From assembly GCF_900102015.1 (NCBI RefSeq), contig NZ_FNAT01000002.1, positions 496,001-560,000 on the forward strand: a stretch of 64,000 bases of DNA, in the 5' to 3' direction. This document shows positions 2,416 to 6,746 of this stretch, in pieces; within the stretch, counting starts at the first letter, position 1, and the number at the start of each line of letters is the position of its first letter. The position numbers and the translations under genes are program-made. The DNA comes from Limimaricola pyoseonensis. Its GTDB lineage: Bacteria; Pseudomonadota; Alphaproteobacteria; Rhodobacterales; Rhodobacteraceae. The notes under the pieces are model-generated. The model searched no databases. It saw nothing but the letters and a program-made list of their open reading frames with translations, and was not told the origin of the DNA.

Positions 2416-3345
2416 ATGCCGCTGACGCCCGAGCAGGAGGCCGAGATCGAAGATCTCCGCGCCGCCCCGAAACCGACCCTGCGCGCCGTCTCGGAGGGCG
2501 CGGAGGCGCATCTCTACAAGGTGCATCCCGTGCTCGACCACGGCTTCGTGCGGATGGTCGACTACATGGGCGACGATTCCGCGATCTGCCAGGCGGCGCG
2601 CGTCAGCTACGGCCGCGGCACCAAGTCGGTCAGCAACGACGAGGGGCTGATCCGCTACCTGATGCGGCACTGGCACTCGACGCCGTTCGAGATGTGCGAG
2701 CTGAAGCTGCACGTGAAACTGCCCGTCTTTGTCGCCCGACAGTGGATCCGCCACCGCACCGCCAACGTGAACGAGTACTCCGCACGCTACTCGATCCTCG
2801 ACCGCGAGTTCTACATCCCGCGCGCCGAGGACCTCGCCGCGCAGTCGGCGCAGAACAACCAGGGCCGGGGCGACGTGCTGAACCCGGAGGAATCGGCGCG
2901 CGTGCTGCAATGGCTGCGCGAGGACGCGATGCGCTCCTACGACCATTACGAGGCGATGATCTCCGACACCTCGCCCGAGGGCGAGGGGCAGCAGGGCCTC
3001 GCGCGCGAACTCGCCCGGATGAACCTGCCGGCCAACATCTACACGCAGTGGTACTGGAAGGTGGATTTGCACAACCTGTTCCACTTCCTGCGGCTCCGGG
3101 CCGACGCCCACGCGCAATACGAGATCCGGGTCTATGCCGACGCGATCTGCGAGATGGTGAAGGACTGGGTGCCGATGGCCTACCGCGCCTTCGAGGACTA
3201 CCGGCTCGGAGGGGTGACTCTGTCAACCATGGCGGTAGAGTGCCTGCGCCGGATGCTCGTTGGGGAGGAAGTGACCCAAGAGACTTCCGGCATGAGCGCC
3301 AGGGAGTGGCGGGAGTTTCAAGGGGTGCTAAAAAAACATGACTAG
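2416..3345 (+). CDS. thyX: FAD-dependent thymidylate synthase ThyX
   Basis: 309 residues. ThyX makes dTMP from dUMP with methylene-tetrahydrofolate and reduced FAD. The signature RHRX7S is present (RHR at residues 112-114, Ser122 in RHRTANVNEYS), and the segment QWYWKVDLHNLFHFL also fits the family. The ATG at 2416 has AGAGGAGA upstream. The last 45 codons (from 3208) use A or T at the third position 14 times, against 2 in the preceding 45, and run into the AT-rich gene downstream. The tail still reads as a normal ThyX C-terminus (SGMSAREWREF), so the enzyme is probably intact. The end overlaps the next gene by 8 bases. Confidence 0.97.
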   Translation: MPLTPEQEAEIEDLRAAPKPTLRAVSEGAEAHLYKVHPVLDHGFVRMVDYMGDDSAICQAARVSYGRGTKSVSNDEGLIRYLMRHWHSTPFEMCELKLHVKLPVFVARQWIRHRTANVNEYSARYSILDREFYIPRAEDLAAQSAQNNQGRGDVLNPEESARVLQWLREDAMRSYDHYEAMISDTSPEGEGQQGLARELARMNLPANIYTQWYWKVDLHNLFHFLRLRADAHAQYEIRVYADAICEMVKDWVPMAYRAFEDYRLGGVTLSTMAVECLRRMLVGEEVTQETSGMSAREWREFQGVLKKHD

Positions 3346-4048
3346 AATTGGCGCAGAATATTTCGATAAGATGACTCAAGATAATACTTCTTGTGATTAT
3401 CCTGCCGCGATTAGATCTGTTTGCCCAAATTGTGGAAATTGGGCATCCTTCACTCTAGCGCACAACCATTTGAATCCGGCGATGTCGATCCGGACCGCAG
3501 GTTCGTATTGCCCTAGCTGTAATTTCCTAGTGAAGTTTGTAATGCTATATGAGGATCGGGCCGTTCAAAATAGATCACGGGTGCCGATTCAGGTAGATCT
3601 GTATCCCGAGATGGACTCTGAATTTAAGGTCGGGGCGCTTCCCGATAGTGTGCCAGCGCCCCTCAGAAAATCTTTGGACGATGCAATTCGCGCCTATAAT
3701 GCAAGGATCTATGGGGCGACGACAACCAGCGGTCGACGTACGCTTGAGGGTATTTTTAAATATATGCTGCCAGAAGAGCAGCGAGATACTTCCCTGTACA
3801 AGCTAATCCAAGCTGCTGGCGATAATTACGACTTCAAGGCTCCTATAGACAGGTTGTCGAACGCTGTTAGAAAGGGAGGCAATCTTGGAGCTCATTTTGA
3901 TCCGGACAAAGAAGCAGACCAAGTAATGGCGCGGCAGACTCTAGACTTGTTGGTTTATCTAATCGAGTATCTCTACGTCCTTCCAAAAAGGATAGAGTCA
4001 CTAGAGAACGCTATTGAAATGCCTGAAGTGGCAATTGGAGAAGGCTAA
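3338..4048 (+). CDS. DUF4145-like protein in an AT-rich islet
   Basis: 236 residues. The N-terminal part has two CPxC pairs (CPNCGNW and CPSCNF, about residues 29-62) suggesting a zinc ribbon. The C-terminal part (about 130-215) is helical with RLSNAVRKGGNLGAHF, the Gly-Asn...His motif seen in DUF4145 proteins. DUF4145 occurs alone or fused to restriction and other defence-associated proteins; its biochemical role is unknown to me. Base composition is strikingly unlike the neighbours: 3361-3420 has 22 G/C of 60. The ATG overlaps the end of thyX by 8 bases, and the TAA shares bases 4045-4048 with the convergent cold-shock gene stop. Likely horizontally acquired; a defence role is a guess. Confidence 0.7.
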   Translation: MTRIGAEYFDKMTQDNTSCDYPAAIRSVCPNCGNWASFTLAHNHLNPAMSIRTAGSYCPSCNFLVKFVMLYEDRAVQNRSRVPIQVDLYPEMDSEFKVGALPDSVPAPLRKSLDDAIRAYNARIYGATTTSGRRTLEGIFKYMLPEEQRDTSLYKLIQAAGDNYDFKAPIDRLSNAVRKGGNLGAHFDPDKEADQVMARQTLDLLVYLIEYLYVLPKRIESLENAIEMPEVAIGEG

Positions 4049-4251
4049 ACCTTCCTCAAATTCCCCGCCATCTGCCGCCCGTCGCGGCCCTCGATCAGCT
4101 CGAATTCCACCTGCTCCTCGTCGGCCAGACCGGTGAGGCCCGAGCGTTCGACGGCGGAGATGTGCACGAAGATGTCCTTGCCGCCGTCCTCCGGCGCGAT
4201 GAAGCCGTAGCCCTTGGTCGTGTTGAACCACTTCACGGTGCCCTTCGGCAT
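4045..4251 (-). CDS. Cold-shock domain protein
   Basis: 68 residues, a single cold-shock domain that binds single-stranded RNA and DNA. RNP1-like GYGFIAPE and RNP2-like DIFVHISAV are both visible after the canonical start MPKGTVKWFN, which fixes the ATG at 4251. The usual length of a bacterial Csp is 65-70 residues. The stop (4045-4047) overlaps that of the convergent DUF4145 gene. A possible -10 (TAGACT on the minus strand near 4310) would give a leader of about 55 bases, but I would not rely on it. The exact Csp paralogue cannot be named. Confidence 0.95.
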   Translation of the reverse strand: MPKGTVKWFNTTKGYGFIAPEDGGKDIFVHISAVERSGLTGLADEEQVEFELIEGRDGRQMAGNLRKV

Positions 4252-4352: not shown

Positions 4353-4646
4353 ATGCGGGTGCTGGGGCTGAAGAACTGCGACACGACGCGCAAGGCGGTG
4401 AAGGCGCTGAAAGAGCAGGGGCATGAGCCGCTGCTGGTCGACGTGCGCGCCGAAGGGCTGAGCGAGGCCGAGATCGCGGCGCTGGTCGAGGCTTTCGGCG
4501 ACAAGGCGATCAACCGCGCCTCTGCGACGTGGCGGGGGCTTTCCGAGGACGAAAAAGCCCGGCCGGCGGCCGGGCTTCTGAAGGACCACCCGGCGCTGAT
4601 GAAGCGCCCGGTGATCGAGGAGGGCGGGCGTTACCGCCGGCCCTGA
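4353..4646 (+). CDS. ArsC/YffB-type thioredoxin-fold reductase
   Basis: 97 residues of the ArsC/Spx superfamily. The cysteine motif NCDTTRKA (Cys9) and the later blocks [17 protein letters not shown] and LMKRPVIE match the YffB branch, which is arsenate-reductase-like and glutathione-linked; a physiological substrate is not established for most members. The ATG at 4353 is preferred over 4341 because GGAGGGAAAG lies just before it. The last 16 bases overlap the end of convergent thrS. Confidence 0.85.
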
Positions 4647-6589
4647 CGCAGATCCGGCGGGGTGGCCTCGTCCTTGAGGCGCGAGACCACCTCGTCCAAG
4701 CCCAGCACCTCGGAGCGGTTCTCGCCCAGACGCCGCAGGCTGACGGTGCGCTCCTCGACCTCGCGGCCGCCGATGGCGAGGATGACAGGGACTTTCCCGA
4801 CGGAATGCTCCCGCACTTTATAGTTAATTTTCTCGTTGCGGGTGTCGGCCTCGGCGCGGATGCCGGCGCGGGTCAGCTCGGCCACCACCTCGTGCACGTA
4901 GTCGTCGGCATCCGAAACGATCGAGGCCACGACGACCTGACGCGGCGCGAGCCAGAGCGGCAGGCGGCCGGCGTGGTTCTCGATGAGAATCCCGAGGAAC
5001 CGCTCGAACGAGCCGAGGATGGCGCGGTGCAGCATGACGGGCCGGACCTTGTCGCCCTTCTCGTTGACGTATTCGGCGTCGAGCCGGTCGGGCAGGTTGA
5101 AGTCGGCCTGGAAGGTGCCGCACTGCCACTCGCGCCCGATGGCGTCGGTCAGCTTGAAGTCGAGCTTCGGGCCGTAGAAGGCGCCTTCGCCCGGATCGAC
5201 GGTGTAGTCGGCCCCGGCCTTCTGGATCGCCTTTTCCAGCGCGCTTTCGGCCTTGTCCCAGATGTCGTCCGAGCCCACGCGGGTCTCGGGCCGGGTGGAA
5301 AGCTTGATGTCGAACTTCTCGAAGCCGAGATCCTCGTAGACCGAGGCCAAGAGCGCGATGAAGTCCGCGCATTCCTGCTCGAGCTGGTCCTCGGTGCAGA
5401 AGATATGCGCGTCGTCCTGCACGAAGCCGCGCACCCGCATCAGCCCGTGCATGGAGCCCGAGGATTCGTAGCGGTGGCAGGAGCCGAACTCCGCGAGGCG
5501 CAGCGGCAGGTCGCGGTAGGACTTGAGGCCCTGGTTGTACACCTGCACGTGGCAGGGGCAGTTCATGGGCTTCAGCGCGTTGGTGCGCTTTTCCTTCGCG
5601 CCTTCCTCGTCCACCTCGACGATGAACATGTTCTCGCGATAGGCCTCCCAGTGGCCCGAGCGCTCCCACAGCACGCGGTCGACGACCTGCGGGGTGCGGA
5701 TCTCCTTGTAGCCCGCGGCGATCTGGCGGCGGCGCATGTAGTCCTCGAGCGCGCGGTAGACGGTCCAGCCGTTCGGGTGCCAGAACACCATGCCCGGCGC
5801 CTCTTCCTGCAGGTGGTAGAGGTCCATCTCGCGGCCGAGCTTGCGGTGGTCGCGCTTGGCGGCCTCCTCGAGCAAGGTGAGATGCGCCTTCAGCTCCTCG
5901 CGGTTGCGGAAGCCGACGCCGGAGATGCGCTGCAGCTGCGGGCGCGAGACGTCGCCGAACCAGTAGGCGCCCGAGACGCCCATCAGCTTGAAGGCGTCGG
6001 CGGGCAGCTGGCCCAGATGCTGCAGATGCGGGCCGCGGCAGAGGTCCTGCCAGTCGCCGTGCCAGTACATGCGGATCGGCGCGTCCTCGGGGATGCGGTC
6101 GATCAGCTCGATCTTGAAGGTCTCGCCGCGCTCCTGGTAGTAGGCGCGCGCCTGCGCCCGGTCCCACACCTCGTTGCGGATCGGCTCGGACTTGGCGATG
6201 ATTTCCTTCATCTTCTTCTCGATCGCGCCGAGATCTTCGGGGGTGAAGGGCTCCTCGCGGTCGAAATCGTAGAACCAGCCGGTCTCGGTGACCGGGCCGA
6301 TGGTGACCTTCACGTCGGGCCAGATCTCCTGCACGGCGCGCGCCATGACGTGCGCGAAGGCGTGGCGGATCAGCTCGAGCGAGGGCAGCTCGTCCTTGTT
6401 GGAGTAGATGGCGATGCGGCTGTCGGTCTCGATCGGCCAGCTCAGATCCCAATGGGTGCCGTTCACGTCGGCCGAGATGGCCTTCTTGGCAAGGCTCGGC
6501 GAGATCGACTGCGCCACCTCGGCGGCGGTCACGCCGGCCGGGTAGTCACGGCTGTTGCCATCGGGAAAGGTGAGGGAGATCTGGGCCAT
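4631..6589 (-). CDS. thrS: Threonine--tRNA ligase
   Basis: 652 residues, a class II synthetase that charges tRNA-Thr and edits Ser-tRNA-Thr. In order: TGS domain (from [11 protein letters not shown]), editing domain with [12 protein letters not shown], catalytic core with the zinc-site segment [11 protein letters not shown] and class II motif 2 (FGSCHRYE then [13 protein letters not shown]), and an anticodon-binding C-terminus with [13 protein letters not shown]. The ATG at 6589 gives the canonical N-terminus; an upstream in-frame ATG would add ten non-family residues. It ends 16 bases inside the ArsC-like gene on the other strand. Confidence 0.98.
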
Positions 6590-6746
6590 GTTCGGCCTCC
6601 TCGTCGGTTTGGCGCCCACGGAACGCCCGGTTGCGGGTTATGTGTCGGGGCTTGATGCTTGGCGGCGGCGCGGGTGTCAAGCGCGGGGCTTGCCATCGGG
6701 GCCGCGCGCTTCGATGCTGCGCGCCGACCAAGAGAGGGAGACCGCC

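Follow-up and report, generated by a model that had tools for sequence, protein, structure and literature searches.

An A+T-rich islet between thyX and csp

How did a short block of A+T-rich DNA come to replace the very end of thyX in Limimaricola pyoseonensis, and why does it stop exactly where the next gene stops? We analysed this locus in a stretch of 64 kb (hereafter the window). The features of interest are the following.

2416..3345, + strand: thyX, FAD-dependent thymidylate synthase (Pfam Thy1, 9e-56); left neighbour and fixed edge of the slot
3208..3318, + strand: A/T-shifted thyX tail ending at codon WREF, common to the genus
3310..3318, + strand: tail signature CGGGAGTTT (codons R-E-F); the left junction lies directly after 3318
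3319..3345, + strand: cargo-side DNA giving the last thyX codons and the stop; differs among all 8 Limimaricola genomes
3338..4048, + strand: cargo gene, starting in overlap with the thyX stop; its 236-aa product has two CPxC pairs and matches DUF4145 weakly
4045..4251, - strand: cold-shock protein gene csp (Pfam CSD, 5e-23); right neighbour, with the same junction in 8/8 genomes of the genus
4353..4646, + strand: ArsC-family gene, conserved right flank
4631..6619, - strand: thrS, conserved right flank; named by its translation and conserved place

A sequence-only reading of this DNA had placed the break in codon use inside thyX instead of at the gene border, and its figures are exact: 14 of 45 codons end in A or T from 3208 onwards, against 2 in the 45 before (and 17 of the 264 ahead of 3208). 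The G+C count that it gave for 3361-3420 (22 of 60 bases) is also exact, and the islet is the poorest part of the window in G+C, positions 3201-4000 being the only ones below 55% (in 400-base steps). The cargo gene itself has 46.6% G+C and a GC3 of 44.7%. As claimed, the islet ends at a shared stop: the TAA of the cargo gene (4046-4048) interlocks with the csp stop on the minus strand (4045-4047). The last sense codon of csp is native, and its stop codon lies within the cargo DNA. The same reading proposed that DNA from another lineage, carrying its own thyX tail plus a cargo gene, had recombined into the 3′ end of thyX. This proposal is largely upheld by the tail signatures at three genes and the orphan lepA tails described below, with one refinement. 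The break at 3208 is real, but the A/T-shifted tail up to WREF is common to the genus, and the DNA private to this genome begins after 3318.

Same junctions, different occupants in Limimaricola

All eight Limimaricola genomes have csp, arsC and thrS behind thyX, i.e. two conserved flanks, with an A+T-rich block of 0.6-1.8 kb between thyX and csp. In 8/8 genomes the left junction falls at the same codon (WREF), the right junction falls at the last sense codon of csp, and the cargo side supplies the last 5-9 codons of thyX together with the stop codons of both thyX and csp. The occupants are different in all eight species compared: the DUF4145-type gene of the window, a HicA/HicB pair with a small gene, a GmrSD_N gene with a second gene, a Fic gene, a DUF6338 gene, a possible glycosyltransferase (below the cut-off) and two proteins without a Pfam match. 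When their frames were compared by BLASTP at 1e-4, with the second gene of G003 outside the set, no related pairs were found. Hence, the expectation that relatives carry other A+T-rich cargo at the same place is borne out in 8/8 genomes. Relatives with csp close behind thyX, also expected, were found outside the genus (e.g. loci L055 and L071, which have no A+T-rich block) and not among its eight genomes. The islet could have been ancestral, with the same gene and the same tail in all relatives. This is the case for the tail up to WREF, genus-wide, and not for the gene, which we found in 1/8 genomes of the genus and in 2/61 relatives, the other copy being 28% identical.

Among the seven closer species (21 pairs), identity in the 75-base windows that flank the cargo is 85-97% on the left side and 84-96% on the right side. 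Such values would be compatible with homologous recombination without being proof of it. The final 60 bases of thyX show raised divergence within the genus, ranking 85th of 856 windows, which is only suggestive. One congener also has, on another contig (G001:C261:80186-80293), a fragment that matches thyX residues 197-231 (35 residues, 83% identity).

A cargo slot behind thyX across the family

A thyX match was found in 8/8 genomes of the genus and in 313/395 genomes of the family Rhodobacteraceae; 82/395 have none. In 44 of 67 named loci, an A+T-rich islet (at least 350 bases) begins no more than 150 bases from the thyX stop, and all other DNA of these loci (each at least 14 kb, 1,129 kb in total) holds 5 islets. 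A random 300-base window would give 0.09 loci. The count omits 13 of the 80 named loci, mainly those shorter than 14 kb. Occupants are small, 0.1-2.0 kb in 72 loci, and their longest frame is on the thyX strand in 65/71. The first frame begins exactly 4 bases before the end of the thyX stop in 17/65. Outside the genus, csp and arsC lie at widely varying distances or are absent while the left edge remains constant. Among the thyX loci on chromids or plasmids (four in Paracoccus, one in Pseudorhodobacter), that of P. ferrooxidans has an annotated gene 57 bases behind thyX. Five loci from several genera (L057, L095, L099, L118 and L138) have a second type of left end, in which thyX finishes in NDPA and a similar hairpin with GCTCCAGTGGAGCG comes between it and the cargo.

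We consider it fairly probable, taken jointly with the route of entry proposed below, that the islet of the window is the present occupant of a cargo slot at the thyX 3′ end that is used across the family, and that more such slots exist at parE, rimO and lepA. In the open-access literature, as far as titles and the beginnings of abstracts go, we found no earlier report of them.

A tail signature tied to occupancy

Once repeats and loci with fewer than 400 bases behind thyX had been excluded, 10 of 118 thyX loci fitted neither the occupied nor the empty cut-off. In the 74 occupied loci, no synonymous columns of the gene are more biased than three in its last codons: Arg is encoded by CGG in 91% (expected 30%), Phe by TTT in 84% (26%) and Gly by GGG in 88% (33%). 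Among the 34 empty loci, CGG drops to 47% and TTC is the commoner Phe codon. The complete CGG GAG TTT is present in 54/74 occupied versus 7/34 empty loci (p = 6e-7). Ranked by plain codon identity among the blocks of thyX, it is number 14 of 293 in occupied loci (genus excluded) and number 220 of 290 in empty ones. The codons directly upstream show no comparable conservation. A conservation that simply rises towards the 3′ end of thyX was ruled out, since only the last codons stand out.

rimO and parE have signatures of their own. At rimO (12 occupied and 31 empty loci; 10 of 53 were intermediate and set aside), Leu is encoded by TTR in 10/12 occupied versus 5/31 empty loci, and Glu by GAG in 10/12 versus 7/31. 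At parE, 51 loci were read and one more of the 52 was too short, giving 30 occupied, 20 empty and 1 intermediate. Here, 27/28 scorable occupied loci (2 of the 30 lack the VEEL anchor) have three or all four of the marks GAGGAG, TTG, GAT and GTT, versus 2/20 empty ones (p = 5e-10).

Such counts of loci ignore descent. Hence, we compared slots inside single genomes, using the 24 in which thyX, rimO and parE include at least one occupied and one empty slot (18 slot readings were intermediate, and two of the 24 genomes, G000 and G005, are from the same genus). The signature was commoner at the occupied slot in 20 genomes, at the empty slot in none and tied in 4 (p = 1.9e-6). An empty slot also bears the signature in 4/24 genomes (G013, G101, G105 and G222). 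The signature thus tracks cargo far more than the codon habits of a lineage, and the same-genome comparison excludes lineage codon bias as its source.

Orphan tails behind lepA

A+T-rich DNA was found behind lepA in 12 of 30 loci, one of them judged on about 250 bases; 5 loci were intermediate and 13 had none. A second lepA match is present in 7 of the 193 genomes that have a lepA match. Four genomes (G236, G068, G127 and G000) have an orphan lepA tail between the native lepA end and the A+T-rich DNA. In G236, 602 bases lie between the native end and a second, diverged lepA tail (about 36 codons); the stop of this tail and the start of an A+T-rich gene overlap. In the genome of the window (G000; locus L379, C13, 360019-360465), a 50-codon tail, decayed and interrupted by an internal stop, lies 65 bases behind lepA and is followed by about 0.9 kb of A+T-rich DNA. 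Internal stops also occur in the orphan tails of G068 and G127. As for the other second matches, lepA reaches the contig end in G203 and G070 and the second tail piece is on a different contig, and in G078 there is a second near-full copy of the lepA query stretch. These tails would be fossils of one-sided replacement: incoming DNA that anchors in the gene and joins inside the old tail would shift the old tail and its cargo downstream. This fits our best reading of the slots, given in the next section. At thyX, the search for orphan tails gave only two short, chance-like peptide matches (L106 and L118).

Two other observations concern this locus. The piece in G203 (L376, G203:C7:64456-64731) is a 92-residue lepA tail with A+T-rich DNA behind it, and could be a fifth orphan tail or a broken gene. 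The 602-base stretch before an orphan tail holds an apparent GIY-YIG-type gene (by eye) between similar palindromic repeats (L322).

A proposed route of entry

The locus-specific signatures at three genes and the orphan lepA tails support the view that the tail may travel with the cargo. The unit would consist of the last tens of bases of a housekeeping gene and, usually, one A+T-rich and often defence-type gene of up to 2.0 kb. Recombination anchored in the conserved end of the gene would bring it in, and its other end would join without a fixed partner, i.e. by homology-facilitated illegitimate recombination (HFIR). The incoming tail would preserve the housekeeping protein and often set the start codon of the cargo on the stop codon of the gene. 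Within a genus, ordinary recombination in thyX on one side and csp on the other might then swap occupants, as in a minimal mobile element. The DNA could plausibly arrive in gene transfer agent (GTA) particles or by competence. That tail and cargo enter together at the conserved 3′ end, spread by flank recombination and are plausibly carried by GTAs is, in our judgement, the likelier account of the data, though by no means a secure one. What the data show directly is the slots, the change of occupants from species to species, the constant left edge, the tail signature, the orphan tails and the modest length of the cargo; the recombination route, the carrier and the defence function are inferred. 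The parE signature beside reversed cargo frames and the lack of a convincing second gene tail at the right border (both described below) also favour this account.

A related process is known from type VI secretion. One report proposes that T6SS effector modules are displaced by HFIR, and that old modules remain as downstream orphans (PMC5361080). The likeness would lie in the single conserved anchor, the non-homologous join at the other end and the orphans downstream. On the first two features the slots give a mixed picture: their left edge is constant and their right side varies outside the genus, but the right border is exact inside Limimaricola. They differ in that the anchor is the tail of a housekeeping gene, the cargo is often defence-like and the orphan is that gene's own tail.

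Some results go against the proposed route. One-sided illegitimate joining alone does not predict the exact right border in 8/8 Limimaricola. The signature is short, with no conservation of the codons just upstream, and replacement of long homologous tracts should have left a longer one. Its block is only 14th by plain codon identity in occupied thyX loci, and four genomes show it at an empty slot as well. Finally, orphan tails were found at lepA alone, in 4/193 genomes.

For the carrier, the family TIGR02217, which we take to mark a GTA, is present in 6/8 genomes of the genus. GTAs carry about 4 kb of DNA, and the 2-kb ceiling on the cargo would suit such a small load. GTA DNA is taken up by a competence-type route and may be incorporated by homologous recombination (PMC7296036). 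A search for a vehicle found the exact motif in 0 viral contigs. If the proposed route is right, the 3′ ends of housekeeping genes are standard sockets for the family-wide exchange of single, often defence-like genes without local mobile-element machinery. This would help to explain the spread of small defence genes, and it would give GTAs a testable benefit.

Alternative explanations

The alternative that survives best, although we regard it as unlikely, is a site-specific recombinase or transposase encoded elsewhere, which would recognize the 3′ tails and insert single-gene cassettes, somewhat as in an integron without a neighbouring integrase. The short signature and the precise left edge leave room for such a dedicated enzyme. 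This edge is constant to within a few codons over many genera, and the signature is sharply bounded and at synonymous sites. The ends of thyX, rimO and parE are similar in being G-rich/T-rich (by eye), and the preference of the cargo for the orientation of the gene would suit an enzyme. So would the parE signature, which is also present in 7/7 loci where the longest cargo frame is reversed (three of these frames are short and perhaps not genes).

Other results go against such an enzyme. Alignment revealed no repeat of the gene tail at the far end (p = 0.11 inverted, p = 0.51 direct), so that integration of the att type, with its attL and attR, was rejected; alignment and peptide search gave no convincing second gene tail there either. 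A palindrome at some right borders had pointed to the A+T-rich genes behind rimO and parE; of its 14 strict copies in the six genomes that first drew attention to it, 10 are beside A+T-rich genes. A BIME-like palindrome is present in 10 of 30 other genomes, at 1-18 copies each and sometimes beside slot cargo (L320-L339), but copies adjoining an A+T-rich gene were just 2 of the 17 checked in G236 and 0 of 4 in G213 and G178. We dropped the idea of a dedicated right-end palindrome because most copies checked later are away from cargo. The palindrome is not specific to cargo, yet the rimO and parE slots that it pointed to hold up. Folding energies of the borders compared with downstream controls gave p = 0.06 for 27 parE borders and p = 0.22 for 57 thyX borders. 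Moreover, no transposase, integrase or recombinase model matched at E 0.01 in the 50 cargo proteins of thyX slots, and few cargo proteins are related to one another, with kinship both rare and distant (25-55% identity).

parE is a site for Tn7-like transposons. As with these, and with integrases that use the 3′ ends of conserved genes, the cargo immediately follows such a gene end and is often defence-like; here, in contrast, it is at most 2.0 kb, the 50 proteins hold no transposase or integrase model and no end repeats were found. Integron cassettes often have one gene each, usually in one orientation, and a fixed entry point. The slots share these three traits and differ in having a single occupant, no tail repeat and a right-border palindrome that is not cargo-specific. 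A bolder form of the enzymatic explanation, which we hold to be improbable, is a distributed system of defence-gene cassettes in Rhodobacteraceae, in which thyX, parE, rimO and lepA would bear short recognition sequences at synonymous sites of their final codons and a remote enzyme would swap single-gene cassettes at these sequences.

The signature might also have arisen after the cargo. Selection could have recoded the end of the gene so that it serves the overlapping cargo gene as a ribosome-binding start region with little structure, leaving a pattern that is no trace of recombination. Cargo start codons often overlap the stop of the gene, and the marks are purine-rich and then A/T-rich, e.g. 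GGAGGAGTTGGATG at parE. We give this a low probability. The signature also accompanies parE cargo on the opposite strand (some frames being short) and cargo whose first frame begins about 40-140 bases downstream, and the orphan lepA tails joined to A+T-rich DNA indicate that tails can move with the cargo.

Saunders and Snyder reportedly described, in 2002, minimal mobile elements (MME) in Neisseria. Such elements are defined in PMC3082526. The slots resemble them in having two conserved genes with differing whole-gene cassettes in between, which would be exchanged by homologous recombination. They differ in that only a single edge, formed by the end of the housekeeping gene, is constant family-wide while the other neighbour changes, and in having an occupancy-linked tail signature and several slots. 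A plain MME, with random past insertions later exchanged through both flanking genes and no part for the gene tail, fits Limimaricola with its two constant flanks and two constant junctions, but it is a doubtful general explanation because it leaves unexplained the occupancy-linked signature within genomes, the orphan tails and the left edge that persists outside the genus where csp and arsC are distant or missing.

What the occupants encode

Pfam matches at the curated cut-off were found in 28 of the 50 thyX-slot proteins scanned. The families include HicA, HicB, GmrSD_N, Fic, PIN_12, AbiJ_NTD4, the CAP12/Pycsar TIR and ThsB TIR domains, Mrr_cat, SLFN_AlbA_2, reverse transcriptase, SIR2_2, FRG, AAA_15/AAA_21 and HSDR_N. 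Families that are not defence-like are present too, namely a glycosyltransferase, a HAD hydrolase and several DUFs. The 20 proteins scanned from rimO and parE slots include AbiJ/Abi_C, HEPN and DUF3800. With PADLOC, 3 of 10 occupants scanned singly match at 1e-5, and 227 families are matched by at least one of 70 occupant proteins. If slots are what we propose, candidate defence genes could be listed by position alone.

The protein of the window had been put forward as a possible defence protein. It matches none of the PADLOC families, and its DUF4145 match (E = 0.0044, 17.5 bits) is below the curated Pfam cut-off of 23.1. No PDB relatives were found at E 1, and a structure prediction was not used (mean pLDDT 39). 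An annotated DUF4145 relative on a Deinococcus plasmid is 36% identical, a resemblance only; relatives were found in 0 phage and 2 plasmid records, and none was confirmed in viral contigs. The protein has a GNLGAH motif with a preceding Arg, which we take to resemble HEPN-type motifs, and a DUF4145-family gene above its cut-off occupies a rimO slot in another genus. A defence role for the gene, for which it would be a candidate, matches the company that it keeps in the slots.

Occupants are occasionally shared between places. One type is found in both a thyX slot and a rimO slot (46% identity). Two thyX slots from different genera (L033 and L052) share one kind of occupant, HicA and HicB with a third small gene, at 29-50% identity.
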